A DNA stretch of 64,000 nucleotides from a bacterium (GTDB lineage Bacteria > SZUA-182 > DTGQ01), in assembly GCA_040755755.1 (NCBI GenBank), contig JBFLZW010000033.1, positions 165,010 to 229,009 of the forward strand, written 5' to 3'. This document shows positions 18,086 through 45,323 of the stretch, in pieces; the first letter of the stretch is position 1; the number at the start of each line of letters is the position of its first letter. The notes beneath the pieces are model-generated. The model did no database searches, had not been told where the DNA came from, and saw nothing but the letters and a program-made list of their open reading frames with translations. Both the position numbers and the translations under genes were made by a program.

Positions 18086-20509
18086 ATGGCTATCCCCCTG
18101 AGAAGAGAGAGTGAAGACAGTGAAATTGGTGCTCCCTATGGTCTAACGAGGATTCTGAACATCTTGCAGATAAACCGCAGGTCACCGCAGGCATTTGCAG
18201 AATCTCTCCCCTTTTCACTCAACGATACTACCGCAGGCTCAGAGAACGAGCTACAGGCCGTGGTCATGGGGAAGAAGGATGATGTCGATCTTCCCATATC
18301 CATCGAAGAATCCAATTATTACCAGAACATCGTCAAGCGCATCAAGGCAGGCGAGACGCCCCGGAGGATAATCACCGAGCTGGAAAAATACCTGAGTGAT
18401 AACCGGGAGGATGTATGGGAGAATAGCTGGGTCAGGTTTCCCCGCTCACGGTTAAGCCATTATGCCAATAAAACTTTCAACCGTGACCTTCTGGCTGACA
18501 AAAGCAATCCATCCGCCGGCAGGCGGACGGATGCGGACAGATTCATCTTGTATCGAAACGGGGAAGAGCATATCAGGATTCCCGTAAGCTACCTTCTGAA
18601 ACTGGCCCTGGCTGACGCTGTCAGCTCCGGCCCTGATTTTCACCTTACGGTACGGGCAACCGGTGAGCGGATCATGCACCATTTCCTGAATGACAACACC
18701 TCACCGGAAACCTTTTCTTTTCAAGCGGTCCTGCTCAACCCGCGATCCGGGATGGGCAGGGAGATAGCCAGAGAGACGGCCAAGCGCTTTCTGTTGACTC
18801 AGTTTCTCCTCATGTACGCCAACCGCAGCTTTCAGCTTGTATCGACCGGGCAGCGGGCGTTAGTCTATTTTGCACCTCACCCACCTGTCCGGCAGCGGCA
18901 CCTGAACGATCTCATATCGGATGCCTTCTACCGGGAGCTTTTCATGAGCCCCTGCCTTTCCGGGTGGGACAAGGGCGAAGCCAAGTATCAATATATGATT
19001 CTCTGCCATCAGGTTTTGTCCCGAAGCCATCTGAATACCCTGGTCAAACTCAAGGATGCGGGCATTATCACCAGAAACCTGGTGGTGCTTCCCAACCTTT
19101 CCAATATCAGCCTGGCGAATAACGGAACCCACATCAGCCTTGGCAGCCGCAAGCTGACTGGACTCCTTGGCGATGCGGCCTCCGGATTCGGGGCCAGGGA
19201 GGAAAAGTACTTTGGCGATCTGGTGATAAAAATTGCCGAACACTTTCTGCCTCTCTTTGTCAATGCCTACAGCGCCGCTCCCTACCGGCTCGATTTCTGG
19301 GACTTTCATCCTGAAAGGGCGCTGGGGTATTTACCGCATGAGCTTGATTTCACGCATCTTCGCATGATCTGGCGAAGATGGAAGGGAAAGGCCAGGCTGA
19401 AAATTTTCGGCAATCCCATCACCCCTTTCGGACCGAAATGGCTCGATGTGCTGATCAGCAGGATTTTCGAGCTGAAGGGAGACTTCATTCTGGATTTCCG
19501 GCTTATAGACTATCTGGTGGCCCTGATGAGCACCGATCAGAGCCCGGCCCTGGATGGCAGGCTGGGGAATGACAAGAGATTGAAAAAGGACCTGGCCGAC
19601 CTTGGTGTGTTCGACACCCATATGTCGATCTATCTTCTCTACCGGCTCCGTGAATTCTGGGCTATGGGCTTTTCGGGGTTCGAGGGCCGCCACTACAGCC
19701 TGTTCGAAAGCCTTATGGATGACCTGGGGCAGGCAGCCGGTCTCCAGACTCTGATCACGGCCCTGGCTTTTCACTATATCCTGAAAGGCGAGATAACCCA
19801 TGACCATATACCGGACGATCCTTCCGTGGAAAGCGAGCGCCGCCAGATATTCTTCGGAACGGCAATCGGGATCCCGACCTTTTATGTCCGCAAGAACACG
19901 AAAAACCAATTCATGATGAAAATTTTGAAAAAAGTCCAGGGAATCCGCCTGAGCCACCGCTATCCCAATTATCTGCGGGTTCATAACCTCGAATACCGAA
20001 AAGCCCTCATCGAGGTCATCAGGGAAGATGCCCCGGACCTGATCGAGCTTATGGAACTGTCCGGAACTCTGACTGACCTTGAGCGCAGGATCATTAATCC
20101 TGAGCTGTACTCGGCTGGCGGAAAACTCACCCGGGATATCTTGGGCGAAGCCAATGCCCCGACGCCGATGCACCTTGCCGGCAGGGAGTTTAACCTGGCT
20201 GCCGAGCGGTATTACCGGAACACGTTAAGGATCCGGCACGTGAAGGAAGCCCTCAGCCTGCTTGAAGAGGATGTAAGGAAAATCGAGACTTGCGCTGAAG
20301 ACAGCGCTGGCTCCTGTGGGGAAAGCCTGACAGCTATACTCGGCGGAAAGAACCCCTTGGAGTTTCTGGCAGCCATCCAGGGCGATCTCATCAGTGAAAC
20401 CGCATCCCCCGATGTCTTGAGGAAACTCATCCATCTCACGCTCCTGACCATCCATGACGACAGGGAAAAGGGCAGGAAAGAGCAGCAACGTCAAAGGACT
20501 TCGGTATGA
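18086..20509 (+). CDS. Conserved-looking hypothetical protein, 807 residues, function unknown
   Basis: I do not recognise this protein. It starts at an ATG with GGAGG upstream (18070s) and has good coding character throughout. There is no signal peptide and no convincing membrane helix, so it is probably cytoplasmic. Conspicuous segments include LLNPRSGMGREIARETAKRF, LPNLSNISLANNGTHISLG, LDFWDFHPERALGYLPHEL and a C-terminal charged helix region from ~730. Its TGA overlaps the ATG of the phosphatidylserine-decarboxylase-like remnant (ATGA), indicating one transcript and possibly a link to phospholipid metabolism. A weak 11-bp-repeat motif precedes it. Confidence 0.7.
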   Translation: MAIPLRRESEDSEIGAPYGLTRILNILQINRRSPQAFAESLPFSLNDTTAGSENELQAVVMGKKDDVDLPISIEESNYYQNIVKRIKAGETPRRIITELEKYLSDNREDVWENSWVRFPRSRLSHYANKTFNRDLLADKSNPSAGRRTDADRFILYRNGEEHIRIPVSYLLKLALADAVSSGPDFHLTVRATGERIMHHFLNDNTSPETFSFQAVLLNPRSGMGREIARETAKRFLLTQFLLMYANRSFQLVSTGQRALVYFAPHPPVRQRHLNDLISDAFYRELFMSPCLSGWDKGEAKYQYMILCHQVLSRSHLNTLVKLKDAGIITRNLVVLPNLSNISLANNGTHISLGSRKLTGLLGDAASGFGAREEKYFGDLVIKIAEHFLPLFVNAYSAAPYRLDFWDFHPERALGYLPHELDFTHLRMIWRRWKGKARLKIFGNPITPFGPKWLDVLISRIFELKGDFILDFRLIDYLVALMSTDQSPALDGRLGNDKRLKKDLADLGVFDTHMSIYLLYRLREFWAMGFSGFEGRHYSLFESLMDDLGQAAGLQTLITALAFHYILKGEITHDHIPDDPSVESERRQIFFGTAIGIPTFYVRKNTKNQFMMKILKKVQGIRLSHRYPNYLRVHNLEYRKALIEVIREDAPDLIELMELSGTLTDLERRIINPELYSAGGKLTRDILGEANAPTPMHLAGREFNLAAERYYRNTLRIRHVKEALSLLEEDVRKIETCAEDSAGSCGESLTAILGGKNPLEFLAAIQGDLISETASPDVLRKLIHLTLLTIHDDREKGRKEQQRQRTSV

Positions 20510-20940
20510 TTTCGCTTCCCAAACACCAATACATCGAGCGTGAAACCGGCCGGATCAAAACGGAACGGCTCTGCGGCGACCGGCTGATCGGTGCGCTCTA
20601 CCTGACTGCACGGGAAAATTCCGCGGCTCTTTTCCGGGCGCTGACCGGCGGACGGATGTCCAGCCTGCAGAATGCCTCGATCCTCTTCGAGGAGCTTTTC
20701 GGGATAGATAAAACATCCTGGCTCAGGGCCTTCGAGGGAGGGGATTTTGCCATTTTTCGGCTGACTCCTGATAAGTATCACTATAACCATACTCCTGTGG
20801 CCGGAAAAATTGTGGACATTTACCCGATTGGCGGGGAGTATCACTCCTGCAATCCGACTGCGGTCACTGCTATTCCCGGGTTGAACAAGGGGGTTGATAG
20901 GGATACCCACCCCAAAAAGCTATCACACTTCCCCCCGTGA
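20506..20940 (+). pseudogene. Phosphatidylserine decarboxylase-like fragment
   Basis: The 144-residue frame begins like bacterial phosphatidylserine decarboxylases (QYIERETGRI) and contains GGDFAIFRLTPDKYHYNHTP and IGGEYHSCNPTAV, corresponding to the middle of that family. Family members are ~200-300 residues and end with a Gly-Ser autocleavage site (LGST type) that creates the pyruvoyl cofactor. That C-terminal part is missing: after CNPTAVTAIPG the sequence loses similarity and stops. The region between the two matching segments also appears shortened. It is therefore probably a decayed gene, though an unusual short homologue cannot be excluded. Translation would be coupled to the upstream gene. 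Confidence 0.55.
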
Positions 20941-21094: not shown

Positions 21095-22906
21095 ATGCGC
21101 AAAAATCGAAACTACATACTCGCTTGGCTGTGTACTTTTATCTTGATGATGTTATTCATGCTTCTGGCCAAGATATCAACGGCATCAGCCTGGTGGCATG
21201 AGCAGTGGTTATACCGCAGGCAGATTGTTTTTGATACTTCCTCTGCAGGGATCGATCTCAGGGAAAATCCTGGCCCGGTGGTGATCCTCCTGAGGCTTCA
21301 TTCGGGCAATCTCGACTTTTCCCGGGTGAAAGAGAAAGGAGAGGATATTCGCTTTGTGAGCAGTAGTGATAAAACGCTCCTCAAACACCACTTCGACAGC
21401 TATGAACCGGTAGATGAGATTGCTCTTGTCTGGGTGCAGGTACCTGCGCTTTCGAGCGGGCCGGATGGAAACTTCATTTGGATGTACTATGGAAACAAAG
21501 CTGCCGAGGATAGTCAAGATACCAAGGGGACCTACGATGTGAATCAGGTGGCTGTGTACCATTTTGGAGAGACTGAAGGCCAGCCCAGGGACTGGACGGC
21601 TTATAATAACCCTGTATCAGGCTTCAGCGGTGGGCTGGGCTTACCTGCGGTAATTGGCAATGGGGTTTCCTTTAACGGTGTCTCCGATATGATAACCATC
21701 CCTCAATCACCCTCCCTGAACTTTTCCAATGGGTTCACCTTTTCCACCTGGATCAGGATCAACGCTCCGCAGCAGGATGCATATCTGTTTTCCCGAGAAG
21801 AGAAAGACCGGTCCCTGGTGATCGGCGTCAACCAGAGCAGGGTCTATTGCCGGCTGAGGGCCGACGGTCAAACGTCCGAGGTTGAATCGAATACGGATCT
21901 TCCTTCCGGGAGCTGGCATAATGTGGCAGTCTCGGTTGATCAAAACCGCAAAGCAGTTATCTACGTTGATGGTACCGAGACCGGTTCCGGGGATTTCCCA
22001 TCGGATTTGTCCGAATTGACCGGAAATCTTACCCTGGGAGGTTCAGCCAATGGCGGACATTTCCTCGCAGGTGATGTGGACGAGGTCCGGATATCCAACA
22101 TAGCAAGACCAGTGGCATCGATACGGCTGGCAGCCGTTAATCAGGGAGAAGGCAGCACATTCTGCTCCTATACGGAAGAGGAAAAAAACGAGGGACAGGG
22201 ATTCATCGCCAAGCTTGCAGAATATGGGGAATATACCAAGACGGTTATTCGATACACCACGCTCGATGGGTGGGCCATCAATATTACCCTGTTGATCATA
22301 CTTGCCCTGAGCTGGATTGTTTTGCTGGTTAAAACCCTCACGCTTTTCTTGGTGGAAAAAGAGAACAGGGTATTTCTGGAATCGTTCAGGCAGAATAACG
22401 ATATTCTTGCACTTCCGGAAGAAGATGCCGGTTTTCCAAATTCATCCCTGTACCAGGTTTACCGGGAAGGGAAGCGGGACTTGAAGGAACGCCTCGGGAA
22501 CCAGGCAACTCATCAGAAAAATAAAACCCTTCATCCCAAGGAACTCAGCTCGTTCAAAGCCAAGCTGGAAAAGGGGACTACCAGGGAGGAGCAGAAGCTC
22601 AACAGATGGCTGCTCATTTTAACCCTGGCCATCAGCGGAGGCCCTTTCCTCGGGCTTTTGGGTACGGTCTGGGGGATCATGAACACCTTTGCCGCTATGG
22701 CCCTGGCAGGTGAGGCAGATATCGTGGTTATCGCTCCGGGTATAGCCTCGGCACTGTCTACGACAGTCCTTGGGCTTATCGTCGGCATACCGGCCCTGTT
22801 CGGCTACAATTACCTGGTTGGAAAAATACGAAACATAACCGCTGACATGTATTTGTTCGTGGATGAACTTACCTGTAAAGTGGATGAAACCTATGGAGAG
22901 CAATAG
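21095..22906 (+). CDS. ExbB/TolQ-like proton channel fused to exported DUF2341 and LamG-like domains
   Basis: A 603-residue fusion. A signal/anchor helix (residues ~8-30) is followed by a DUF2341-type module (WWHEQWLYRRQIVF; IWMYYGNKAA) and then a concanavalin/LamG-like fold (NGVSFNGVSDMITIP; FTFSTWIRI; WHNVAVSVDQNRKAVIYVDG; GDVDEVRISNIAR). A transmembrane helix (~395-420) then leads into the MotA/TolQ/ExbB domain (LLILTLAISGGPFLGLLGTV; APGIASALSTTVLGLIVGIP). Plain ExbB proteins have ~220-240 residues, so ~370 residues of periplasmic ligand-binding-like sequence were added. ExbD and TonB genes follow, so it should power outer-membrane transport using the proton gradient. Pho-box-like repeats precede it. 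Confidence 0.85.
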   Translation: MRKNRNYILAWLCTFILMMLFMLLAKISTASAWWHEQWLYRRQIVFDTSSAGIDLRENPGPVVILLRLHSGNLDFSRVKEKGEDIRFVSSSDKTLLKHHFDSYEPVDEIALVWVQVPALSSGPDGNFIWMYYGNKAAEDSQDTKGTYDVNQVAVYHFGETEGQPRDWTAYNNPVSGFSGGLGLPAVIGNGVSFNGVSDMITIPQSPSLNFSNGFTFSTWIRINAPQQDAYLFSREEKDRSLVIGVNQSRVYCRLRADGQTSEVESNTDLPSGSWHNVAVSVDQNRKAVIYVDGTETGSGDFPSDLSELTGNLTLGGSANGGHFLAGDVDEVRISNIARPVASIRLAAVNQGEGSTFCSYTEEEKNEGQGFIAKLAEYGEYTKTVIRYTTLDGWAINITLLIILALSWIVLLVKTLTLFLVEKENRVFLESFRQNNDILALPEEDAGFPNSSLYQVYREGKRDLKERLGNQATHQKNKTLHPKELSSFKAKLEKGTTREEQKLNRWLLILTLAISGGPFLGLLGTVWGIMNTFAAMALAGEADIVVIAPGIASALSTTVLGLIVGIPALFGYNYLVGKIRNITADMYLFVDELTCKVDETYGEQ

Positions 22907-22907
22907 C

Positions 22908-22979
22908 ATGAAACCGAAGGAGAGCATGGAGATCAGGGAGAGCATGGAGACCTTGGAAACCAGGGAGACCAGGGTATGA
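22908..22979 (+). CDS. Possible 23-codon leader peptide between exbB and exbD
   Basis: ATG at 22908 opens a 23-codon frame whose TGA (22977-22979) overlaps the exbD ATG (22976-22978). It starts 1 bp after the ExbB stop. The peptide is highly charged and internally repetitive (ESMEIRESME), arising from a short duplication. It would fill the gap between two genes expected to be tightly coupled. Whether it is translated is unknown; it may only be a spacer left by the duplication. Confidence 0.35.
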   Translation: MKPKESMEIRESMETLETRETRV

Positions 22980-23383
22980 AAAGAAATATTTACCAGAGTG
23001 CAGCTTACACCGAGATTAATATAACACCCCTTATGGATCTGGCCTGGAATCTCCTGGTTGTCTTCATCGTGGCCATTACGGCTACCGTTCAGGGCATCAA
23101 GGTCAATCTGCCCAAAGCCAGCAGCACTCCGAGCATGGCCAAACCAAAGACCAAAGCGATCTCCATCACCGCCGAAGGCCGGATTTATCTCGATACCTTC
23201 CCGGTAACGATCGCTGATCTGGAGTCCAGATTGCGGCAGTATAAGGCTGCCGATCCTGATTTGCCGGTAATTATCAAGGGGGATGAAAAAATTGCCTATA
23301 AGCAGGTCGTAGAAGTCCTGGACCTTCTGGCCAGGCTCGAGATCAATCAATTAGGGCTTGTGACCCAAAAACTCGTTAAATAA
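22976..23383 (+). CDS. exbD: ExbD/TolR-type biopolymer transport protein
   Basis: A 135-residue inner-membrane protein with one N-terminal transmembrane helix preceded by INITPLMDLAWNLLVVFIVA. In this motif the Asp in the PLMD segment corresponds to the conserved proton-path Asp of ExbD. The periplasmic domain includes VIIKGDEKIAYKQVVEVLDL, typical of the family. It pairs with the upstream ExbB fusion to energise TonB. The start overlaps the stop of a small upstream frame. Confidence 0.88.
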   Translation: MKRNIYQSAAYTEINITPLMDLAWNLLVVFIVAITATVQGIKVNLPKASSTPSMAKPKTKAISITAEGRIYLDTFPVTIADLESRLRQYKAADPDLPVIIKGDEKIAYKQVVEVLDLLARLEINQLGLVTQKLVK

Positions 23384-23437
23384 CCCCGGCAGGACACTAT
23401 TAACCGCAGTTATATTTTACCGGAGGATAACGCCCTT

Positions 23438-24145
23438 ATGGTCCAAAGCAAGCAAAAGCCCCTGCAGTCGTCAGTAGTTGGAATTGCTGCCAGCATCGTT
23501 TTTCTCATCCTTATCGGCTTGATTATTTTCGCTGTCAGATCGATCGATTACGGGCCGACGAGAAAGCGTCAGGTTCAGACAGTCCATCTGATGCGAGATG
23601 ATCCACCGCCGCAACCCAAGCCCGTAGAAAAGCCGCCTGAGCCGGTAATCGAGCAGCCCCAGGAGGTCATAGAACAGCCGCCGGAAACGCCGCCTCCCGA
23701 TCAGACCGCCGAGGATCAGTCACAGAATGATCAGACTGCCAGGGATAACCTCGGAGTGGATGCCGAGGGCGGAGCGGGAGCGGATGGATTCGGTCTGGTG
23801 GGGAAAAAAGGAGGAAGACCCCTGCTGATCGGTGGAGATGGTTCCAGCGGCGGGGGATGCTCACCGTTGAGGAAGTATGCCTGGTATACCAGGAAAATCG
23901 AGATGGAAATCAAGAAGCGGCTGATGTTCCAGGGAAATAACCTTCCTTCCGACGATCTTCATGTGCTGGTTAAAATTACCCTGGATGAGCAGGGAAGTAT
24001 CACTGACTATTCGATTTACGATTCATCCGGCAATGACCGGCTGGATGAGGCAGTGGAACTGGCTATGAAGCAGACTCAATCGGTCAGTGAACCGCCGCCG
24101 GAAGGTATGCCGCGGACAGTCAAGCTGCGGATATCCCTCGGATAA
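23438..24145 (+). CDS. tonB: TonB-like energy transducer
   Basis: A 235-residue protein with an N-terminal membrane anchor (~12-33) and a proline-rich periplasm-spanning region (PPPQPKPVEKPPEPVIEQP, ~55-90). A Gly-rich stretch with a Cys follows, and then a C-terminal TonB/TolA-like domain (YTRKIEMEIKKRL; VLVKITLDEQGSI; LDEAVELAMKQ). It would transmit energy from ExbB-ExbD to TonB-dependent outer-membrane receptors; no such receptor gene is in the window. It lies 54 bp after exbD in the same operon. Confidence 0.85.
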   Translation: MVQSKQKPLQSSVVGIAASIVFLILIGLIIFAVRSIDYGPTRKRQVQTVHLMRDDPPPQPKPVEKPPEPVIEQPQEVIEQPPETPPPDQTAEDQSQNDQTARDNLGVDAEGGAGADGFGLVGKKGGRPLLIGGDGSSGGGCSPLRKYAWYTRKIEMEIKKRLMFQGNNLPSDDLHVLVKITLDEQGSITDYSIYDSSGNDRLDEAVELAMKQTQSVSEPPPEGMPRTVKLRISLG

Positions 24146-24259
24146 GCGGGGCAGGAGGCAGGAAAATGGATGACAGAAGGGTGTCTGGAAAATCCTGCCA
24201 GAGGGCGGGGTTTTTCAGATACACTCTCGCTTCTTATTTGCCAGAACCGGAGAAAGTAT

Positions 24260-24991
24260 ATGAATAAAACCAGAATAGCGACCAAACTCGTCAATATCAT
24301 CCTGGTGATCAGTCTCGGAGCAACGGCTGTTTTGTGGTGCAGCCATATCAGGCTTACCCGGAATCAAAAGTTCCTGGAGGAGAAGCTACGGGAAGCTGAT
24401 AGCCGGATGACTTTCCTGAAAAAGAAAAGAGTTGAGGAGGGCAGGGTTTTGCAGACCCGGCAATTGCGGGAAAGATCCACCCTGGCCGGGCAGGTGCAGT
24501 CTGCTGAGGCACAGGTTGAAGCGCTTCGGAAAGAAAAAGAGCAATTAGCCCAGAAGTATGCGTCCCTGCTGGGTCTGAAAAAAAGGGTCGATCGCGATAT
24601 TCAGGCACTTGCCTGTAGATTTGAAGAAGTTTCGGAAGGCTGGGAAAAGACCAAAAAGGAACTGGCTGTCATGACTCTTCGGTGCCGGGAGGCCGATACG
24701 AAGGCAACCCGGCTGGTAAAGGAAAAGCAGGATATCGAGAAGACCCTGAATTCGAAGCTTGAAAAAGTGAATAAAGAATTTGCCCAGTGTGAATCCCATA
24801 ACGCCAGACTTTGCCTGATTGCCGATGAGCTGATGGAGCGATACCAGTCGAAAGGGGTTGTTAACGCTCTGTTGCAGAAGGAGCCCTTCACTCAGTTTAA
24901 AAAAGCCGAGTTGGAGGAGCTTATGCAGGAATACCGGGAAAAAGTCAATCAGCAGAAGCTGCACACTGCATCCAGCCAACCAAAACCTTAA
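24260..24991 (+). CDS. Membrane-anchored coiled-coil protein of the Ton operon
   Basis: A 243-residue protein with an N-terminal transmembrane helix (IATKLVNIILVISLGATAV) followed by an almost continuous heptad-rich, charged coiled coil (~35-215). I chose the ATG at 24260 because it has GGAGA upstream and the helix begins there; the frame is open from 24170. No enzymatic motif is visible. Its position directly after TonB suggests a periplasmic structural or spacer component of the Ton complex, but this is inference. Confidence 0.7.
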   Translation: MNKTRIATKLVNIILVISLGATAVLWCSHIRLTRNQKFLEEKLREADSRMTFLKKKRVEEGRVLQTRQLRERSTLAGQVQSAEAQVEALRKEKEQLAQKYASLLGLKKRVDRDIQALACRFEEVSEGWEKTKKELAVMTLRCREADTKATRLVKEKQDIEKTLNSKLEKVNKEFAQCESHNARLCLIADELMERYQSKGVVNALLQKEPFTQFKKAELEELMQEYREKVNQQKLHTASSQPKP

Positions 24992-25936: not shown

Positions 25937-26995
25937 ATGAATACCATGAAAGTCAGGACTTATCTGCTGAGTTTTCTGCTATCTGCATTTCTCGTGATCT
26001 GTGCCTTTGCACCCCGGGTTGAATCCTTGACCATTAACGGGGCGGGAGCATCGTTCCCGTATCCCATTTACGCTCAATGGGCACACACGTATGAGCAAAC
26101 AAGCGGCCAGAAACTCAACTACCAATCCATCGGTTCGGGGGGAGGCATAGCTCAGATCAAGGCTAAAACTGTAGACTTTGGCGCTTCGGATGCTCCGCTC
26201 AAGAAAGAAGAGCTGGATGCAAGCGGCCTGATCCAATTCCCCATGATCATGGGAGGAGTTGTGCCGGTTGTCAATATCAAGGGAGTGAAGGCAGGAGAGA
26301 TGAAGCTCACCCCGCAGCTTTTGAGTGACATCTTCCTGGGCACGATAACCAGGTGGAATGACCGGGCTGTCAAGGCGGTCAACCCCGGACTGAAACTCCC
26401 CGATAAAACCATTACCGTAGTACACCGGGCGGACGGATCGGGAACTACCTGGATTTTCACCAATTACCTGGATAAGGTCTCGGCGCAATGGCATGAAAAA
26501 GTTGGAACCGACAAGGCTGTTGCCTGGCCTGTCGGCGTGGGTGGCAAAGGGAATGAAGGTGTGGCCGCTTATGTGCAGCGCATCGACGGATCGATCGGAT
26601 ACGTCGAATTTGCCTATGCTCTGGAGAACAAAATGGCCCACGCGCTGCTGAAGAACAAGGCCGGCAAATTCGTTGAGCCAACGATCGAGACTTTCCAGGC
26701 TGCCGCAGCCAACGCCGACTGGGAGCATGCTCCCGGCTTCTATCTGGTCCTGACCGACCAGGCCGGTGAAAACAGTTGGCCGATTACCGGCGCATCCTTT
26801 ATCCTCGTTTACCGCGAGCAGGCAGAGGCAGAAAGAGCCAAGGGTATGCTCAAATTTTTTGACTGGTGCTACCAGAATGGAACGAAAGAAGCACAAGACC
26901 TCCAGTATGTGCCAATGCCCCAGAATGTGGTTAAACTTGTGGAATCTACATGGAGCAAAGAAATAAAGGCCGCAGGTCAGCCTGTCTGGCCGTAA
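25937..26995 (+). CDS. pstS: PstS periplasmic phosphate-binding protein (copy 2)
   Basis: A 352-residue exported phosphate-binding protein. It has a signal peptide (residues ~8-30, cleavage near PRVES). PstS motifs: INGAGASFPYPIYAQW, YQSIGSGGGIAQI, VDFGASDAPLKKEEL, VVHRADGSGTTWIFTNYL and GGKGNEGVAAYVQ. An AAGGAGAAGG ribosome site precedes the ATG. Unlike the copy at 12548 it stands alone, behind Pho-box-like repeats and before phoB, consistent with a phosphate-starvation gene. The pstC, pstA and pstB genes are not in the window. Confidence 0.92.
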   Translation: MNTMKVRTYLLSFLLSAFLVICAFAPRVESLTINGAGASFPYPIYAQWAHTYEQTSGQKLNYQSIGSGGGIAQIKAKTVDFGASDAPLKKEELDASGLIQFPMIMGGVVPVVNIKGVKAGEMKLTPQLLSDIFLGTITRWNDRAVKAVNPGLKLPDKTITVVHRADGSGTTWIFTNYLDKVSAQWHEKVGTDKAVAWPVGVGGKGNEGVAAYVQRIDGSIGYVEFAYALENKMAHALLKNKAGKFVEPTIETFQAAAANADWEHAPGFYLVLTDQAGENSWPITGASFILVYREQAEAERAKGMLKFFDWCYQNGTKEAQDLQYVPMPQNVVKLVESTWSKEIKAAGQPVWP

Positions 26996-27080: not shown

Positions 27081-27200
27081 AATTTATTATGATTTCAGCG
27101 ACTCACCCTTCATCAGCGTCATAGCCAGGGATGTCTTTTGGATGGTATCGCCAGGAGGAGAACAATTCTGTTTGACCATCAGGAAAGGAGGTTGCGCATC

Positions 27201-27887
27201 ATGGCCAAAGGCAGGATTCTGGTCATTGATGATGAAGAGGACATATTGGAGGTGGTAAGATACAACCTGGTCAGGGAAGGGTACTTCGTGGAATTGGCTA
27301 CCTGCGGTGAAGAAGCACTGACCAAAGCCAGATCAGAACTTCCCGACCTTGTCGTCCTTGATCTTATGCTGCCGGGAGTAGATGGCCTTGAGGTTTGCCG
27401 AACTTTAAAAAATAATGTCACGACCTCTCATATCCCTGTCATCATGCTATCAGCAAAAGGGGACGATGTTGACATCGTGTCTGGCTTTGAGCTTGGCGCT
27501 GACGATTATATGACCAAGCCTTTCAGTCCCAAAGTGCTGATAGCCAGAATCAGAGCAGCCTTGCGAAAGCGCAGGAAGGGTGATCAGGCAGATGCTTTGA
27601 CCATGGTCATCCATAACCTGGTTATTCATCCCGCCCGCCATCAGGTGCTGGTGAACGGAAAAGCCGTAGAGCTCACAGCCACCGAGTTCAATATCTTGTG
27701 CCTCCTGACTCGCAAACCTGGGTGGGTTTTCACCCGTAACCAGATTATCAACGCTATCAAGGGAGATGATTATGCAGTCACGGACCGATCCGTTGATGTG
27801 CAGATCGCCGGATTGCGAAAGAAACTGGGCGTCGCAGGCGAGTATATTGAAACCGTACGAGGGGTTGGCTACAGGCTTAAAGAATAG
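27201..27887 (+). CDS. phoB: PhoB-like OmpR-family response regulator
   Basis: A 228-residue two-domain regulator. The receiver domain has ILVIDDEEDI, phospho-Asp in VVLDLMLPGVDG and the conserved Lys in MTKPFSP. The winged-helix domain has LTATEFNILCLLTRKPGWVFTRNQI, VTDRSVDVQIAGLRKKLG and IETVRGVGYRLK. It is predicted to bind direct repeats upstream of phosphate-responsive genes. I chose the ATG at 27201 because AAAGGAGGT precedes it and family members start there; the frame is open from 27138. The name rests on the pstS neighbour and family resemblance; no phoR kinase is adjacent. Confidence 0.85.
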   Translation: MAKGRILVIDDEEDILEVVRYNLVREGYFVELATCGEEALTKARSELPDLVVLDLMLPGVDGLEVCRTLKNNVTTSHIPVIMLSAKGDDVDIVSGFELGADDYMTKPFSPKVLIARIRAALRKRRKGDQADALTMVIHNLVIHPARHQVLVNGKAVELTATEFNILCLLTRKPGWVFTRNQIINAIKGDDYAVTDRSVDVQIAGLRKKLGVAGEYIETVRGVGYRLKE

Positions 27888-28569: not shown

Positions 28570-28630
28570 GGGTATTTTTCATGACATGATACGATTATCT
28601 CGTGGGAAACCAAATAAGGAGCCTAAAGAA

Positions 28631-29158
28631 ATGAATCCGGGTAACGTGAGGATTATTCATGCCATCCCCGGCAGGGTACGGATAAGAATCCTGAAAATAA
28701 AGAATAATCCAGCCTTGGCCGCTGAAATCAGAGAAAAGTTTTCAGTCATAGATGGAATGAAACAGGTGGAGGCAAACCCAGTAACCGGCAGTATACTGAT
28801 TCATTATGATCCGGGGATAATTCACTCTCTTCACTCTTTAGGCTCCCTTTGGGAGGTCTTTTCCGAATTTTTCCCTGAACTGACATTACCGGAGTGCCAG
28901 ACCCTTTTTATTTCCCGGAGCGAAGCCTTTGGCCAGGCAGTATCTTCGCAGGACAGAATTGCCGGGATCTTCGGGAAATTCGATACCACGGTGAAAGAAG
29001 CCAGCGGCTTGAGCCTGAAAACCATCTTCCCTCTGGCTCTCTTCATACTTGGCGTCCGCCAGCTCCTGGTATCTCAGGACACTCCTCTCCCAAACTGGTA
29101 TGATTTTCTCTGGTTTTCCTTCAGCGCTTTCTTCCTGTTAAATAAGCCAACTAAATAA
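28631..29158 (+). CDS. HMA-like domain protein without CxxC metal motif
   Basis: A 175-residue protein. Residues ~5-70 form a ferredoxin-like HMA fold (IIHAIPGRVRIRIL; VEANPVTGSILIHYDP), but the metal-binding GMxCxxC of ordinary HMA domains is replaced by IPGRVRIRI. The C-terminal ~70 residues contain two hydrophobic segments (LKTIFPLALFILGVRQLLV; FLWFSFSAFFLL), suggesting a membrane-anchored form. The start at 28631 has AAGGAG 9 bases upstream; the frame opens at 28586. It shares its motifs with the ATPase N-terminus and the protein at 31425, so it is probably an accessory or regulatory partner. Confidence 0.72.
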   Translation: MNPGNVRIIHAIPGRVRIRILKIKNNPALAAEIREKFSVIDGMKQVEANPVTGSILIHYDPGIIHSLHSLGSLWEVFSEFFPELTLPECQTLFISRSEAFGQAVSSQDRIAGIFGKFDTTVKEASGLSLKTIFPLALFILGVRQLLVSQDTPLPNWYDFLWFSFSAFFLLNKPTK

Positions 29159-29218
29159 GCCATTGTGCGAGTAAGTGTAAGATAAGATGATTTCCTGTCC
29201 AGGGAAAAAGGAGAAAAC

Positions 29219-31345
29219 ATGCCGATTCAATATCGTATTGCCCAGGCGATTCCTGGTCGTCTTCGATTACGGGTTGATCTGAGGGGGGATTTCCAAAAGG
29301 AGGGCATGGTAAAGGCTCTTGAAGATTTCCTCCGCTGTCAGAAAGGGGTTTTCAAGGTCAATTATAACCGCCATTGCAGAAGCCTCACGGTGCAGTATAA
29401 TCCTGTAGATACCAGCGGGGACGAACTCATGCGGCTTATTTCCAAGGTTTCGGTCGAGACCTTGAAACTCCGGCAACGAAATCCTGAGCACCAGAAACCG
29501 GAGGCAGAAGGGTTTTCCTGGTTACCCTTTACCTTATCGAGTGTAGCGCTCATTCTGGGCACCTTTACCGAGTCTTCTCTTATGCCTTTCTTGCTCCTTG
29601 GGGCCAGTATTCCTATATTTTCCCGCGCTTTCGTTTCAGTAACCAAAGAAAAAAAGCTGAATGTGGATGTCCTCGATGCCTCGGCAACGGCCCTCCTCTC
29701 TTTTCAGCGGCAATATACTACCGCTGCGGCTATGGTCTGGCTCGTTTCCCTTGGAGACTTTATCCGCAATGCCACTGTGCGGCAGTCTCACCGGGCGATC
29801 GAAGGCCTTTTCGATGGCCATGATCTTACCGCCTGGGTAGTGCGCGATGGGAAAAAGATTCTGATAAAGGCCGAGGGGGTTCAGATCGGGGATGAAGTCG
29901 TTGTTTATCCAGGCGAACTCATTCCTGTGGATGGAATTGTCCTGGAAGGAAAAGCGACCGTTGACCAGAAAATCCTTACCGGCGAATCGCTGCCTGTGGA
30001 AAAGGAAAAGGGAAACAAAGTCTTTGCCGGAACCGTGGTGAGAGAAGGCAAAGTCTACCTGAGAGCGGAAAAGGTCGGTGCTGAGACTACCCAGGCCAAA
30101 ATCATTCAACTCGTCAACCAGGCACCAACCCAGGAAACCCGGGTTCAAAATTATGCCGAGCATTTTGCCAACCGTCTTGTACCCTGGAGCTTTCTGGCTG
30201 CCGGAACTTCTTTCGCCATTACGGGGAATAGCAATCCCGCGGCATCCCTTCTCATTGTGGATTATGGGACAGGTATCCGGATTGCCGCCCCAACCACTGT
30301 CCTGAGTTCAATGACCAGGGCTGCCCGTCAGGGGATCCTCATCAAGGGAGGACGCTACCTGGAGAAACTGGCTGCGATCGATGCGGTCATTTTTGACAAA
30401 ACCGGCACCCTGACTCTGGGAGAACCTGAAATAGTCGATATTATCCCTTATGGGAAAAAAAATACGCCTGAGTGGGTCCTCAGCCTGGCTGCCGCTTCAG
30501 AAGACCGCATCACTCATCCCACAGCCGAAGCTATCGTTCGCGCTGCAAAACAAAGGGGGATTGACATACCGGAGCGGGAGTCGTCCGAATATACGATCGG
30601 GCTTGGTATCGAAGCTTGCGTCGGCGGGTCGGTGGTTATGGTAGGATGTCACCGCTTCATGGCTCTGAAAAAGGTTCCCATGAAAAGAGCCAGCCGGGAT
30701 ATTGCGCGGCTCGATGGCGGAGGGGCCTCTCCTTTGTATGTTGCGCTTGACGGGAAATTAATCGGGCTTTTGGTTTATACCGACCCTATTCGCCCCGAAG
30801 CGTCGAGCGTCATCCGCGCCCTGAGCTGCAAGGGGATAAAACAGGTTGTCATGCTGACAGGAGACCATCCGGCAATTGCCGAAAAAGTAGCCCGAACGCT
30901 GGGAATTTCACGCTTTATTGCCGATGTTTTTCCCGGTGAGAAGGCCGAAATCGTGAGATCTCTTCAAAAGGAAGGATATACGGTAGCGGTCGTTGGAGAC
31001 GGAATCAACGATACACCGGCCCTCGTGCAAGCCGATGTGGGGATATCGGTAAAAGGGGGAGCGGATGTTGCCAGGGAGACGGCCCATGTTTCCTTCCTTG
31101 AAGGAAACCTCTGGAAAATACCACAAGCCATCGATATTGCGAGGGAATCTCTTCAACTTATCCAGCAGAACTGGAGCATCAATTTTTATCCCAACACTGC
31201 CGCCATCATCCTCGCGGTTTTGGGTGTTCTGAACCCTATCGGGACAACGATCGTGAGCAACGGATCGGCTATTCTCGCCTCATGCAACGCTCTCAGGCCC
31301 TTGATCTCGAATCCTGAAGCCAGCTACGACTATTGCGACCGATAA
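29219..31345 (+). CDS. P1B-type metal-transporting ATPase with atypical HMA and transport motifs
   Basis: A 708-residue P-type ATPase. The N-terminal HMA-like domain (RIAQAIPGRLRLRVDL) lacks CxxC. The catalytic machinery is intact: TGES (~254), the phosphorylated Asp in IFDKTGTLTLG (~393), the P1B-typical HP in ITHPTAEAIV (~435) and GDGINDTPALV (~592). The membrane metal-site helix, normally CPC/SPC/CPH, reads VDYGTGIRIAAPTT, so metal specificity cannot be assigned by the usual rules. It has fewer N-terminal membrane helices than a typical P1B pump. Companion HMA-like genes flank it on both sides. Confidence 0.85.
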   Translation: MPIQYRIAQAIPGRLRLRVDLRGDFQKEGMVKALEDFLRCQKGVFKVNYNRHCRSLTVQYNPVDTSGDELMRLISKVSVETLKLRQRNPEHQKPEAEGFSWLPFTLSSVALILGTFTESSLMPFLLLGASIPIFSRAFVSVTKEKKLNVDVLDASATALLSFQRQYTTAAAMVWLVSLGDFIRNATVRQSHRAIEGLFDGHDLTAWVVRDGKKILIKAEGVQIGDEVVVYPGELIPVDGIVLEGKATVDQKILTGESLPVEKEKGNKVFAGTVVREGKVYLRAEKVGAETTQAKIIQLVNQAPTQETRVQNYAEHFANRLVPWSFLAAGTSFAITGNSNPAASLLIVDYGTGIRIAAPTTVLSSMTRAARQGILIKGGRYLEKLAAIDAVIFDKTGTLTLGEPEIVDIIPYGKKNTPEWVLSLAAASEDRITHPTAEAIVRAAKQRGIDIPERESSEYTIGLGIEACVGGSVVMVGCHRFMALKKVPMKRASRDIARLDGGGASPLYVALDGKLIGLLVYTDPIRPEASSVIRALSCKGIKQVVMLTGDHPAIAEKVARTLGISRFIADVFPGEKAEIVRSLQKEGYTVAVVGDGINDTPALVQADVGISVKGGADVARETAHVSFLEGNLWKIPQAIDIARESLQLIQQNWSINFYPNTAAIILAVLGVLNPIGTTIVSNGSAILASCNALRPLISNPEASYDYCDR

Positions 31346-31424
31346 GCTTCCAGTCGCCAGGAAACGCAAGATTGTCAGCGAGAAATCCCGCCAGCCAATC
31401 AACACCAGGGCAGGGGAATATCCG

Positions 31425-31814
31425 TTAAATTAACGAGCTGACCAAACCCTGAATAGCACTCTCTATCAGTGTTTGTGCCAGGCTCTTCATGACCCTTTGA
31501 CCTATCCCTTCAAATGCCTCCGCAGCAAAGGCCGATTTATAAGGCTTCACATCCGGACCTTGCTTTTGACAAAGTTCCTTCAAGTACCCTAACTCTTTGA
31601 AGGTTTTTATTATTTTGCCCTGTTCCCATTGATGTGGATCATAAAGGATCAGGACACTGCCGGTAGTTGGATTTGCCTTAAGATGTTTAATCCCTTCAAA
31701 TCCTGAAAGCTTATGTTCTATTTCCCGGGCTCGCAAAAGATCACCCTTTACTTCCGCAACCTTGATTCTCAATCTGCCCCGAAGAGAATGAACATAAGCT
31801 GGCTGAATACTCAT
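31425..31814 (-). CDS. HMA-like domain protein, opposite strand
   Basis: A 129-residue protein with the same HMA-like signature as the gene at 28631 (VHSLRGRLRIKVAE; LKANPTTGSVLILYDP) and again no CxxC. The C-terminal 50 residues are amphipathic without a clear membrane helix. The ATG at 31814 follows GAGGAG; the frame is open from 31850. It converges on the ATPase gene (80 bp between stops) and is transcribed away from the CRISPR array. Confidence 0.7.
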   Translation of the reverse strand: MSIQPAYVHSLRGRLRIKVAEVKGDLLRAREIEHKLSGFEGIKHLKANPTTGSVLILYDPHQWEQGKIIKTFKELGYLKELCQKQGPDVKPYKSAFAAEAFEGIGQRVMKSLAQTLIESAIQGLVSSLI

Positions 31815-32084
31815 GGGTGAAATCTCCTCTTTGGTTGTTATGGGCCTCACTTTTCTTATCGAAACAATAATAACTATAATATGTCAAACCAGGGTTAAAA
31901 ATTGATAAAAAGATTGTTAAATTTATGTTAGTTTTCACAAAGGAACATCGATATAGAGTAATCCTGCATGAATGCTGATATTACAGCTATAGATTAGAGC
32001 GGTTTCATGTGCAGGTATTGCGTTGAGAAGATATCAATACGGCTCGAGGAACGTAAGCTCCCATAGCTGTCACAAAGAGAATGA

Positions 32085-35000
32085 GTCGCAATCCCCTCAA
32101 CCGGGTCATATCGGTTCACACAGGAATATAACGATCTCCTCGGCGATGATGCGGAGATCGAGGAGTCGCAATCCCCTCAACCGGGTCATATCGGTTCACA
32201 CGTTAGCCTCGTGGGAAACCAAAAAGAGTAAGGCCAGCAATTGGTCGCAATCCCCTCAACCGGGTCATATCGGTTCACACATTGCCGATCATTGATACCA
32301 AGATTTTCCCCTGGCCAGAGTCGCAATCCCCTCAACCGGGTCATATCGGTTCACACGGAAAAACAACAATGCTTGGGAATACTTTTCCTTCACCTATGTC
32401 GCAATCCCCTCAACCGGGTCATATCGGTTCACACCGAAAACTACTGCTTCCCCAGAAGATGCTTCTACACTTGCTAAGTCGCAATCCCCTCAACCGGGTC
32501 ATATCGGTTCACACCCGGATACCTACTCCGACGGGCTCGGCGCATCTGCCAAAAAGTCGCAATCCCCTCAACCGGGTCATATCGGTTCACACAGACCACT
32601 ATATTATGGGTGGGAATGTCCTGCTAGCGGGAAGTCGCAATCCCCTCAACCGGGTCATATCGGTTCACACCTATGTTACCACCTGATGAGATGTTGTTGG
32701 AGGAGTTGGCTGTCGCAATCCCCTCAACCGGGTCATATCGGTTCACACAACCAGACTTGAGCGAAGTCTCGGATGGATATCAGACCATCCGTCGCAATCC
32801 CCTCAACCGGGTCATATCGGTTCACACAGATCGGTCAGAAAATTTCCTGTCCGTGCAACACGAATTTGAGTCGCAATCCCCTCAACCGGGTCATATCGGT
32901 TCACACTCAATATGCTAACGCATGATGAAAAGATATGTTTCCGCAGACGGTCGCAATCCCCTCAACCGGGTCATATCGGTTCACACCTTCTCTCCGGTAA
33001 TGGAGAGGATTAGCAGACAAAGAGCCGTCGCAATCCCCTCAACCGGGTCATATCGGTTCACACCCCGGTAGTGCCATCACAATCGACAGCAAACTCAAGG
33101 ACTCGTCGCAATCCCCTCAACCGGGTCATATCGGTTCACACATTTTACAAGGTCTGTTTCTTGATCTATAGATTTTTCTTGTCGCAATCCCCTCAACCGG
33201 GTCATATCGGTTCACACGAATTTCGTAGCCACATGCAAACATTGCGGCAGCAAAATAAAGTCGCAATCCCCTCAACCGGGTCATATCGGTTCACACCGTA
33301 GCGGGCCCGAATTCCTGGCTCGCTACGAAATTATAAGTCGCAATCCCCTCAACCGGGTCATATCGGTTCACACTCAGCAAATTTGGGGAGTCTTAGCCTG
33401 CGTAGCTGATCCTCATAAGTCGCAATCCCCTCAACCGGGTCATATCGGTTCACACGGGAGAAACCCTCTCTGAATATAAAACGAGGTTGCAAACACAGTC
33501 GCAATCCCCTCAACCGGGTCATATCGGTTCACACTTCCTGAACCTGCTCTTCCTGCCAGTAAGACCATAGGATAGTCGCAATCCCCTCAACCGGGTCATA
33601 TCGGTTCACACTATCAGCAAGGATGATTATTACGATCTCCTCGGCGACGAGTCGCAATCCCCTCAACCGGGTCATATCGGTTCACACTATCTGAAAAGTC
33701 AAATGCTTGTGCTTATGTCAAAAGATGAGTCGCAATCCCCTCAACCGGGTCATATCGGTTCACACGTATATATTCGTTGTACTATCTACACAAAAAACAC
33801 TGGTCGGTCGCAATCCCCTCAACCGGGTCATATCGGTTCACACACGATTGTTGCGTTCTTTACCTGGATATCTTCATAATGGTCGCAATCCCCTCAACCG
33901 GGTCATATCGGTTCACACCCAAGCTGATCTGTTGCTCCCCGTAATCGGCATTGACTCCTGGGTCGCAATCCCCTCAACCGGGTCATATCGGTTCACACCA
34001 AGGTTGTAGCCTTTGCTAATAGCAAAGTCACAGCCAAGGGGTCGCAATCCCCTCAACCGGGTCATATCGGTTCACACCGGCCTTGGAGGTAGTTATGCTT
34101 TTCGGCGAAGAACATCAGATTCTGTCGCAATCCCCTCAACCGGGTCATATCGGTTCACACATCGGAATACCGGTTATTAAATTTCACGCGCAACATGGGT
34201 CGCAATCCCCTCAACCGGGTCATATCGGTTCACACTCAGGCGGTGTGTTTGCTGTAACTGCCTATGACACTGTGTCGCAATCCCCTCAACCGGGTCATAT
34301 CGGTTCACACTTAATTCGGCGTCAATTATTGCCGAATGGGGATCTCCGAGTCGCAATCCCCTCAACCGGGTCATATCGGTTCACACCCAACGATAGTGGA
34401 GAGGGATTGTGGATCCGCACCACAGATGGGTCGCAATCCCCTCAACCGGGTCATATCGGTTCACACTTTGGGATTTAATTCCGTGCCAACAAAGCTATGC
34501 CCTGATAAAAAGGCATGGTCGCAATCCCCTCAACCGGGTCATATCGGTTCACACACAAACCTGGTGCTCTCTCCCCTGGCCAAAAAAATATTGTCGCAAT
34601 CCCCTCAACCGGGTCATATCGGTTCACACTCATTTCATCCTGATAGATAACATACGACTGTTCATCAGTCGCAATCCCCTCAACCGGGTCATATCGGTTC
34701 ACACCTACCGCTGAAATGACGCAAAAAGACGGACGATCAGCCATGAGTCGCAATCCCCTCAACCGGGTCATATCGGTTCACACTGATGTAGAGTTAGACA
34801 ATCAACATTTGCTCGGCATAGAGTCGCAATCCCCTCAACCGGGTCATATCGGTTCACACTACGAAGACCTGGCTATCCTGCGGGATGGTCAGGCGTGGTG
34901 GTCGCAATCCCCTCAACCGGGTCATATCGGTTCACACTGAATGTAAGAACCGTACAATTTTACCCTGGCAGAAACGGGGAGTCGCAATCCCCTCAACCGG

Positions 35001-35333
35001 GTCATATCGGTTCACACGTGTTAATCTCCGCCTGGCCATTTCTCCACGCGGAAACCAATGTCGCAATCCCCTCAACCGGGTCATATCGGTTCACACCTCA
35101 TAATTGCTCCCTCATCATTGGTCGAGGCCATTGAACAAGAGTCGCAATCCCCTCAACCGGGTCATATCGGTTCACACTGTGAGTATGCGTTCCCTGCGGT
35201 GGGGGTGAGTACATATGGTCGCAATCCCCTCAACCGGGTCATATCGGTTCACACGGTGAATGATCCACCCCAAGGGTGTTAGGCTGCGAACCGAGCGTCG
35301 CAATCCCCTCAACCGGGTCATATCGGTTCACAC
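32085..35333 (-). CRISPR. CRISPR array, 42 repeats of 37 bp, 41 spacers
   Basis: On the plus strand every repeat begins GTCGCAATCCCCTCAACC and ends ATATCGGTTCACAC; all copies I inspected are identical, including both terminal ones. Start-to-start distances run from 75 to 88 bp, giving spacers of 38-51 bp, which is long and usual for type III loci. On the minus strand the repeat ends GGGGATTGCGAC, which resembles the ATTGAAAC-like 5' handle of mature crRNAs. The array is therefore probably transcribed leftward, with the leader on the right (35334 onward) and the newest spacers near 35297. The cas genes lie upstream in the same direction. Confidence 0.97.
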
Positions 35334-35714
35334 TCTACCCCTGGATCTCCTTGCTGGGCGTGGCTTAAAATGCCTGTTCGCGATAATCGAATTTTTTATC
35401 CCTAAAAATTTCATGTTTTCCCTCAAATTTTGGTGTGAAAGATTTTACAATAATCTGATCTGTCCCTTTAATCACAAGGTAATAACTTCATTTTCATGTT
35501 TGGCGATAATCTCCCCCCTTTTTCAGCATCTCAGAGATTATCGCCAAAAGCAGAAGCTTTTCTATCAACCAAAGAAAAGCAGCAATAACAGGTAATTATC
35601 TACAGTTCCTCCTCAAAACCATTCCCTGTCTTTCCTTTCTTTTTTCCAACTCCCCCTTTTGCCCAAAACGGGTTATTCAAGCAGAATCCATTAATTGGGA
35701 ATTGCTACAAGCCT
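35334..35714 (-). promoter_or_regulatory. CRISPR leader region
   Basis: An AT-rich, gene-free stretch between cas2 and the array, in the position expected for a leader that drives leftward transcription and marks the insertion end. It contains a perfect 15-bp inverted repeat (35499-35513 and 35534-35548, arm TTTGGCGATAATCTC) with a 20-base loop. It also has a 25-bp segment (35646-35670, CCAACTCCCCC then TTTTGCCCAAAACG) that recurs near the orphan repeat at 37257-37282. Confidence 0.7.
35499..35548. repeat. Perfect 15-bp inverted repeat inside the leader
   Basis: TTTGGCGATAATCTC and its exact complement GAGATTATCGCCAAA are separated by 20 bases. A half-similar CGCGATAATCGAA occurs at ~35380. 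It could be a terminator-like hairpin after cas2, a protein-binding palindrome for spacer integration, or a regulator site. Confidence 0.7.
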
Positions 35715-36002
35715 TCAGATCACAAAGTAATCCGGCTGATCCTCCTGTATAGTCGTGGATTCGCCGATCAGGGTAATTTTCTTGGTGCATTCCTGGCAAA
35801 CAGAATAAATTCTGATGCTATCTTCTTTCAAATTAATAGCCTTTGTCAAGCGATTTTTTAGGTCTATTATTTGTTTTTCATTAATTTTACATTCAAAGAC
35901 ACTATACTGCACTCGTGCACCATAATCCTTGAGGACCCTGGCTACCCTGGCTCTTTTCTGGTCATCAACGATATCATAGGAAACAACTATAAACTGGCTC
36001 AT
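35715..36002 (-). CDS. cas2: Cas2 adaptation endonuclease-like subunit
   Basis: A 95-residue protein with the Cas2 ferredoxin-like fold. The N-terminal strand FIVVSYDIVDD carries the conserved Asp, followed by RVARVLKDYGARVQYSVFEC and the C-terminal SIRIYSVCQECTKKI. Cas2 dimers bridge two Cas1 dimers in the spacer-integration complex. Length is normal for the family. It starts 39 bp after cas1 and is the last cas gene before the leader. Confidence 0.95.
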   Translation of the reverse strand: MSQFIVVSYDIVDDQKRARVARVLKDYGARVQYSVFECKINEKQIIDLKNRLTKAINLKEDSIRIYSVCQECTKKITLIGESTTIQEDQPDYFVI

Positions 36003-36041: not shown

Positions 36042-37127
36042 TTACCGTACTGTAAAAGGAGTATATTCTTCTTTGTATAACAAAGCCCTTTGGAGTTTTT
36101 CTATTTGCCGCTTGAAATATTCCCGGAAGGTAATACTTCCACTCCCACCCCCGCTTCTACCTCTTTCTGCAGCTTCCTTTCCGCTCTCGCCTTCACCTTC
36201 CCAATCTTTATCTCCATCTCCATCACTTCCCCCTCCTTCCCTATCAACAAAGGGTTTAGCCATACGTTTCTCATAGGCAGCAAGGTATCGCTTTAATCCT
36301 TCCCTGGTAAGGTACATACCTTTGTTCTCCTGGGGCACAAAATCCTCTGGGGAGAGGACCCTTTTATTGAGCAGGTTCAGGGTGAGCATATCCACCACTG
36401 GATGCCGGAACTCTTCGACCAAGTCCAGCGGCAATGATTGGCGTCCATAGCGGAATCCATGAAGAAAACCGATAAAAGGGTCAAACCCGACAGCTTCGGC
36501 CAGGGAGGCCAGCTCATTGGTCATCAGGGTATAGCCAAGGCTCAGCAGAGCGTTGACCGGGTCGGGCGATGGGTGCATCCGCCTCTGCTTAAATGAGAAC
36601 TCTCCGCTCACCATCCGGCTGTAACCCCGAAAGTATGCTCCGCTGCCTGCTCCTTCCACACCCATCAGGGACTCAACGGTCTTTTTCTGGCTGATGGAGG
36701 GGATTAACTGGTTGAGAGTATCGAGCTCTTTTGAGAAATCAACCTCCGGGTGATTTCTCTGGTATCGTAAAAGCAGAGTCCTCTGGTTAGCGAGCTTGCC
36801 CCTGATGAACCTTTTGGCCAGCTCAAGCTTACGTTCAGGAGTGCGGGTGCATTCATACTGGGCCAGGCGCAGGAAAATGTTTTTTGATGCCACAGCTACC
36901 AGTCTGCCCCGAAGATGCCCGCTCATGCTGAAGAATCCGATATCTATGCCATTATCCAGCAGATAGCTGATCGCCTGGGTAGTGACCTGGATAGAACCAA
37001 AGATCAGAATACTGCTTATCTGAAAGCTGGGGATTTCCTGCAGGGTCACTCCATCCTTTTCCACGATCAGTCGCCTGGAAGCTTTCCGCAGGCAGGCTCC
37101 CTGCTCAATAAGGTATAAGATGCCCAT
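36042..37127 (-). CDS. cas1: Cas1 integrase
   Basis: A ~361-residue metal-dependent integrase. Catalytic residues are visible: Glu in LMGVEGAGSGAYF (~158), His in IGFLHGFRYGR (~223) and the acidic residue in LDLVEEFRHPVVD (~238). The ATG at 37127 follows AGGGA; an in-frame TTG at 37133 is also possible. Cas1 is usually ~325-340 residues. The excess is a low-complexity Gly/Glu/Asp/Ser-rich insertion at ~295-331 (REGGGSDGDGDK onward) between the helical core and the final helix. It makes new spacers with Cas2. An isolated repeat copy lies 50 bp upstream. Confidence 0.95.
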   Translation of the reverse strand: MGILYLIEQGACLRKASRRLIVEKDGVTLQEIPSFQISSILIFGSIQVTTQAISYLLDNGIDIGFFSMSGHLRGRLVAVASKNIFLRLAQYECTRTPERKLELAKRFIRGKLANQRTLLLRYQRNHPEVDFSKELDTLNQLIPSISQKKTVESLMGVEGAGSGAYFRGYSRMVSGEFSFKQRRMHPSPDPVNALLSLGYTLMTNELASLAEAVGFDPFIGFLHGFRYGRQSLPLDLVEEFRHPVVDMLTLNLLNKRVLSPEDFVPQENKGMYLTREGLKRYLAAYEKRMAKPFVDREGGGSDGDGDKDWEGEGESGKEAAERGRSGGGSGSITFREYFKRQIEKLQRALLYKEEYTPFTVR

Positions 37128-37176
37128 GTGCAATTTTCCCTTTTTAATTGTAACTAGTCGGTTATGGTGCGTATGG

Positions 37177-37213
37177 GTCGCAATCCCCTCAACCGGATCA
37201 TATCAATTCACAC
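37177..37213 (-). repeat. Orphan degenerate CRISPR repeat upstream of cas1
   Basis: It matches the 37-bp array repeat at all but three positions (ACCGGATCATATCAATTCAC against ACCGGGTCATATCGGTTCAC) and has the same orientation. No second repeat or spacer adjoins it. A 26-bp segment at 37257-37282 resembles one in the array leader, so this may be the remains of a second array or an earlier leader-repeat junction. Confidence 0.88.
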
Positions 37214-37459
37214 CCATCTCTCCTCGCAGCTTTTCCAGAGGATTTTCTCTCTCCTCCCAACTCCTCCATTTTGCCCAAAGCGCCTCTCATGAGGTGCTTT
37301 TGAAGAGTGTGAAAAGAATTTCCTCCTGCTTTTATCAATACAGGCATGGTATCTGAATAAACCATAGCTTTCTCAATAACCATAACTTTCTCTATGCCTA
37401 CAACTTACTCAATAACCACTTTCCATAATGTGAGTTGCTGCCAGTATCAGGTTATCAGG

Positions 37460-38859: not shown

Positions 38860-38875
38860 TTGGATTGCTCCTCAT

Positions 38876-42041: not shown

Positions 42042-42057
42042 TTTTACTTCCTTTCAT

Positions 42058-45044: not shown

Positions 45045-45323
45045 ATTTTCCCCTCATTACCTTACAACAAAATTTATGATGAATTTTCAGCTTTTAATCA
45101 TACAACCTCACCCTAAAAATTTCATCTCCGGCAACGTTGCCGATGCCACTGCTGATGCCAAGGTCATGCATGGCAGTGCAGATGTTCCCTATCTTGTAGA
45201 GAAGCATCCACTCCACTTCTCCCCCTTGAGGGAGAGGCAGGGTGGGGGTGATGGTTATGATCACCTTTCCGCTCGAGAAAAGGAAAATGGGGAACATCTG
45301 ATGGCAGTGTTTACCCTCTGACA

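Follow-up and report, generated by a model that had tools for sequence, protein, structure and literature searches.

Gene content and domain architecture of the operon

The stretch of DNA analysed here (the window) comprises 64,000 nucleotides of contig JBFLZW010000033.1 from the bacterial assembly GCA_040755755.1 and carries, on the forward strand, a compact Ton-type operon whose proton-channel subunit is fused to two exported domains. This ExbB-type protein of 603 amino acids (21095..22906, +) starts with a predicted signal peptide (residues 1-32, 21095..21190, +), which has a hydrophobic segment at residues 7-25 and ends in ASA before WW. Pfam matches place a DUF2341 block (residues 33-172, 21191..21610, +; PF10102 over residues 82-167, E 2e-15) and a LamG domain (Laminin_G_3, residues 195-343, 21677..22123, +; PF13385, E 1e-25; PDB relative 5hon, E 1.7e-14) in the periplasm. 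They are followed by the ExbB/TolQ three-helix core (residues 384-603, 22244..22903, +; MotA_ExbB, PF01618, over residues 479-585, E 1e-28), in which hydropathy puts transmembrane helix 1 (TM1) at 394-412 and TM2/TM3 at about 507-576. Downstream lies an ExbD of 135 amino acids (22976..23383, +; PF02472, E 9e-29), which is 67% identical to the ExbD of Methylomagnum and retains the membrane Asp within ITPLMDLAW (ITPLMDLAWNLL). The next gene encodes a TonB-type protein of 235 amino acids (23438..24145, +; PF13103, TonB_2, E 2e-13; PF03544, E 9e-8) with a single N-terminal membrane helix, a Pro-rich stretch and a TonB C-terminal domain. The last gene encodes a membrane-anchored coiled-coil protein (24260..24991, +). 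Its start at 24260 is more likely than that at 24170, because GGAG lies a few bases upstream and the resulting protein of 243 amino acids would have one N-terminal membrane helix. The original prediction had described an ExbB fused to exported DUF2341/LamG domains and followed by ExbD, TonB and a coiled-coil protein, and its coordinates and domains were borne out by Pfam and by 11 full-length homologues. No TonB-dependent receptor was found in the motor operon of the window; relatives have Porin_5 and two-partner-secretion (TPS) genes in that place.

The extension adds about 360 exported residues to the channel subunit. As predicted from the sequence, the fused region is exported and not shed, because 39 of 43 fusions keep a signal-peptidase-like AxA site followed by WW just where the mature protein would begin, and 394-412 is the only hydrophobic segment that separates the fused domains from the cytoplasmic loop. 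Cleavage releasing the fused region was also considered; the prediction gives a signal peptide only. DUF2341 is the most conserved part of the extension, with 24 of 140 columns conserved to at least 95% across the family compared to 10 of 161 in LamG. The solved chains closest to the LamG part are a sugar-enzyme domain (extracellular arabinanase, the nearest) and an S-layer-protein domain. An AlphaFold2 model of the DUF2341-LamG region, calculated from one sequence only, had a predicted local distance difference test score (pLDDT) of 41.6 and is usable for part of LamG only.

The acidic position in TM3 (APGIAEAL) is occupied by Ser552 in the window (codon 22748..22750, +) and by Ala in the other 42 fusions. 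Of 94 ExbB/TolQ-type proteins without the fusion, 84 have Glu or Asp at the same position. A TolQ-like protein of an Acidobacteriota genome (L023:4450-6666) carries a different extension, some 510 residues at the N-terminus, which did not align to DUF2341-LamG, and keeps the usual TM3 Glu.

Two further open reading frames (ORFs) lie upstream of the motor. An 807-amino-acid ORF without Pfam or NCBIfam match (18086-20509) is located directly 5' of a short ORF matching phosphatidylserine decarboxylase (20506-20940), which is a fragment.

Distribution of the fusion

The genome of the window (5.26 Mb, 97.6% complete) contains seven MotA_ExbB loci and one DUF2341. The fusion was not found in eight genomes from the genus, family, order and class of the window's organism, and a single-protein contig scan together with a scan of 60 relatives gave only generic TolQ/ExbB outside the window's genome. 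Relatives were detected by tblastn against plasmids and by a profile of the exported part. The plasmid and chromid search returned the 11 full-length homologues, from alpha-, beta- and gammaproteobacteria, with 31-37% identity. Since they align along 94-100% of the length, the fusion is no ORF artefact. The profile identified the fusion in 22 of 390 genomes of one order and in 12 of 398 Pseudomonadota genomes. In a quick maximum-likelihood tree all 43 fusion cores, including that of the window, form one clade with a support of 100, and the window sits on a long branch. By this phylogeny the fusion is an established family of single origin in Pseudomonadota. The distinct motor architecture that had been proposed therefore holds as a recurrent, dedicated Ton-type motor with an exported arm; as a family of 43 fusions it is not unique. 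An mBio survey of 2025 also names DUF2341 among the additional domains of non-flagellar stator A subunits and leaves its function open (PMC12505986).

Association with two-partner-secretion cassettes

Ten of the 11 full-length plasmid or chromid fusions lie inside cassettes with TpsB and/or TpsA, Porin_5 and usually a coiled-coil protein, YbjN and a peptidyl-prolyl isomerase (PPIase). The typical cassette comprises a TpsA of the filamentous haemagglutinin type, TpsB, the fused ExbB, ExbD, TonB, Porin_5 and the coiled-coil protein, often with YbjN and a PpiC isomerase, and its carriers include Klebsiella and Cupriavidus plasmids, among others. Porin_5 comes after TonB in all intact loci except Methylomagnum, and several genomes have about 75-200 bp between the end of the TpsA gene and the start of the fusion. 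Although gene orders differ among relatives, the motor and TPS halves remain together. In the order-level sample at least one TpsA end was found on the fusion contig within about 21 kb in 20 of the 22 genomes; in the other two it lies on separate, broken contigs. Surveyed with their gene neighbours, as had been suggested, the DUF2341/LamG-ExbB proteins thus form a single-clade family in or next to TPS cassettes. At one locus (L154:5139-5909) Porin_5 is directly followed by an exported protein of 256 amino acids with a dockerin-type domain.

The motor-linked TpsA proteins have in common a C-terminal domain, about 300 residues long, with a hydrophobic end strand, usually [ST]V[EQ][IVL][IL]G[FYL]G, which in some of them stands at the very C-terminus. 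This domain was found in the TpsA beside the fusion on replicons of Methylosinus, Klebsiella, Aquabacterium and Variovorax. In the order-level sample all 22 fusion genomes have it and none of the 368 others does (hypergeometric p about 2e-36, shared ancestry ignored), and other TpsA proteins are present in 18 of 58 control genomes checked. In the phylum-level sample of 398 Pseudomonadota the fusion was found in 12 genomes, the domain in 13 and both in 12, again ignoring shared ancestry. None of eight TpsA proteins from motor-less genomes had the domain, nor had any readable unlinked TpsA of the fusion genomes. A mere chance neighbourhood of motor and TPS genes is ruled out by the co-occurrence in two samples, in which shared ancestry was not corrected for. 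In its general character the end strand resembles a TonB box, a motif too short for this likeness to prove anything. Besides, contig C1 of genome G249 carries four TpsA genes with the signature C-terminal domain and one fused motor was found there, which suggests that one motor serves several adhesins in this genome.

In the window's genome the TPS genes lie upstream of the motor on the same contig (C33). They comprise the only complete TpsB of the genome (C33:137109-138761), preceded by an FKBP-thioredoxin fusion protein, the only TpsA (C33:138774-148592), which has 3272 amino acids and the C-terminal signature domain (E 1e-100, DVEVIGFEEG), and then the only Porin_5 (C33:148507-150069). A second ShlB match in the genome is weak and located on contig C78. 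The motor starts at C33:186104, about 36 kb downstream of Porin_5. The order fused exbB - exbD - tonB of the cassettes is present in the window, and Porin_5 does not directly follow tonB there. The C-terminal 60 residues of the window's coiled-coil protein match the proteins encoded after Porin_5 in 10 operons (blastp E 3e-7 to 3e-3), with C..N..L....E.L..Y as the aligned motif. Judged by gene content, the cassette is present but split in this genome, because TpsB, TpsA and Porin_5 are on the contig of the motor and the coiled-coil protein is of the cassette type. The region that separates the TPS genes from the window contains an exopolysaccharide cluster with Wzz/BY-kinase-like proteins, an export lipoprotein and glycosyltransferases (C33 151584-163687).

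Comparison with known systems

In Pseudomonas aeruginosa the order pdtA/pdtB-exbB2-exbD2-tonB4-PA0696 (porin)-PA0697-PA0698 (YbjN)-PA0699 (PPIase) has been reported, with the genes co-induced by the sigma factor VreI and the Ton genes beside pdtA/pdtB termed still uncharacterised (PMC7035377, PMC2729926). By this published gene order, the pdt/exbB2 locus of the PUMA3 regulon has the gene set and order of the plasmid fusion cassettes, and the coiled-coil protein of the window corresponds to the cassette protein at the PA0697 position. We found neither the DUF2341-LamG extension nor the TpsA C-terminal domain mentioned for the pdt locus in the literature. Unlike that locus, the window's genome has separate motor and TPS clusters, and its PPIase is the FKBP-thioredoxin fusion.

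The window's motor shares the three-helix core, the ExbD membrane Asp and the TonB C-terminal domain with ExbB-ExbD-TonB and TolQ-TolR-TolA, and the nearest PDB entry to the core profile of the fusion family is TolQ (9kpz, E 1e-33). It differs from both in the exported arm and in the change of the TM3 Glu to Ser or Ala in the fusions. In contrast to TolQ-TolR-TolA and to the ExbB-ExbD-TonB systems for iron and nutrient uptake, it is dedicated to a TPS cassette, with no TonB-dependent receptor in the operon. The long ExbB of Serratia has a short N-terminal extension in which there is no folded pair of DUF2341 and LamG domains. This ExbB works with HasB and is similar in having a periplasmic N-terminal extension and a specific TonB paralogue (PMC9008036). 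Generic ion transporters bearing DUF2341 or DUF3450 are likewise similar in carrying DUF2341 on stator A subunits, and no link to TPS is drawn in the available part of that survey (PMC12505986).

Discussion

The domain architecture, the operon, the single fusion clade, the cassette membership and the co-occurrence of the motor with one TpsA domain are directly established. From these we consider it probable that the operon in the window encodes the motor half, in the inner membrane, of a TPS (type Vb) machine that is energised by Ton and serves a TpsA adhesin. Its most likely role, as far as sequence comparison can indicate, is that of a dedicated, proton-driven motor for this TpsA subclass. 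Proton flow through the fused ExbB and ExbD would drive TonB, while the DUF2341-LamG arms would form a periplasmic docking ring, probably with five arms per channel by analogy with ExbB pentamers. Porin_5 and TpsB, whose genes lie at another site on this contig, would together make up the outer-membrane side, and parts of the machine may be linked or spaced by the coiled-coil protein. The client would be the giant TpsA adhesin, whose C-terminal domain and hydrophobic end strand would stay in the periplasm and be engaged by the motor, the tail being the last part to leave this compartment. We infer that the motor acts on TpsA via this tail and that DUF2341/LamG, the DUF2341 face in particular, is the docking surface. 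Such an action might finish the export of the adhesin, put tension on it or release it. That the export or surface behaviour of the adhesin is powered in this manner, by a Ton-type proton motor that pulls on, tensions or releases the periplasmic tail via the ring, is a more tentative proposal, to which we give somewhat less than even chances.

Several observations weigh against a motor for TpsA. Type V secretion has been described as working without a hydrolysable energy source or an ion gradient, and reconstituted TPS needs none (PMC5422565). Proton use by the fused channel is likely but not certain, because the fused ExbB proteins lack the usual acidic residue in TM3. The TPS genes of the window's genome are not adjacent to the motor but about 36-49 kb away from it, the motor of Methylomagnum has no TPS genes nearby, and no motor was found in the thirteenth genome with the TpsA domain (G717), whose contigs are fragmentary. 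Moreover, insertion mutants of tpsA, tpsB, tonB4 and PA0696 in P. aeruginosa showed wild-type virulence in zebrafish (PMC2729926), a result that does not address secretion.

The main rival is an uptake machine, in which the motor would power the uptake of some nutrient via Porin_5, perhaps one containing phosphorus, and TpsA would be a surface capture protein only, comparable to HxuA, which delivers to the TonB-dependent receptor HxuC. The combination of TPS with Ton has a precedent in HxuCBA (PMC5422565), and Porin_5, which directly follows TonB in nearly all cassettes, forms a barrel on which TonB could act. However, Pfam finds no plug domain in Porin_5, and a search for a TonB box revealed a conserved N-terminal VRVPYIPE stretch, suggestive in itself but missing from the copy in the window's genome. 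A phosphorus compound would fit with the PhoB control of the Pseudomonas pdt genes (PMC4971064) and with the genes for PstS (25937-26995) and a PhoB-like response regulator (27138-27887) directly downstream of the Ton operon. A Pho-box scan gave 9 sites where 5.2 were expected, and its best site falls within a coding region; no clear Pho box was revealed and we make no regulatory claim. Since the strict partner of the motor is the TpsA C-terminal domain, for which the uptake scheme has no need, we regard uptake as unlikely.

A still less probable reading is that motor and TPS genes do not act on each other and only travel together, as a mobile island for surface adaptation under common regulation. 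The cassettes on plasmids of Klebsiella, Cupriavidus and others are in line with such a passenger link, as are the two separate halves in the window's genome and the motor that Methylomagnum has kept without neighbouring TPS genes. Yet this would explain neither why the motor tracks only the TpsA with this one domain and not other TpsA proteins, including those of the same genomes, nor why the halves stay together through different gene orders. Finally, the original prediction had proposed a motor that senses or grips glycan or peptidoglycan, with the LamG/DUF2341 arms binding the sugar or anchoring to the wall. LamG does occur in carbohydrate-binding proteins, and its nearest solved chain is the arabinanase domain, a match at the level of the fold. 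However, LamG is a generic fold and the less conserved half of the arm, the Pfam scan of the window's proteins found no known peptidoglycan-binding domain, and the family is distributed with a TpsA subclass and not with a glycan pathway. We therefore consider this proposal very improbable.

A motor dedicated to TpsA would bear on what drives an adhesin of 3,000-4,500 residues across the outer membrane, which is an open question for the field. If the powered mechanism is true, a pathway that is energy-free by definition would have a branch supplied with energy, and the adhesin might even generate force in a similar way to gliding motors. With a motor family whose distribution follows one TpsA subclass almost perfectly, and with a defined domain on the client, it can be tested directly whether type V secretion is partly powered. 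The exbB2-exbD2-tonB4 genes of Pseudomonas, so far unexplained, would also gain a possible function, as would DUF2341 where it occurs on motors driven by ions.

Other features of the window

Further downstream, a P-type ATPase of 708 amino acids lies between two short proteins resembling relatives of heavy-metal-associated domains (28586-31850). A clustered regularly interspaced short palindromic repeats (CRISPR) array at 32085-36000 has about 42 copies of a 37-nt repeat (GTCGCAATCCCCTCAACCGGGTCATATCGGTTCACAC) at a spacing of 75-83 nt and adjoins type III genes (Csm1/Cas10, Cas_NE0113) at 36042-47632. At 58721-62953 the window encodes an NHL-repeat protein of 1410 amino acids with a C-terminal dockerin and Cu-binding MopE-like motifs.

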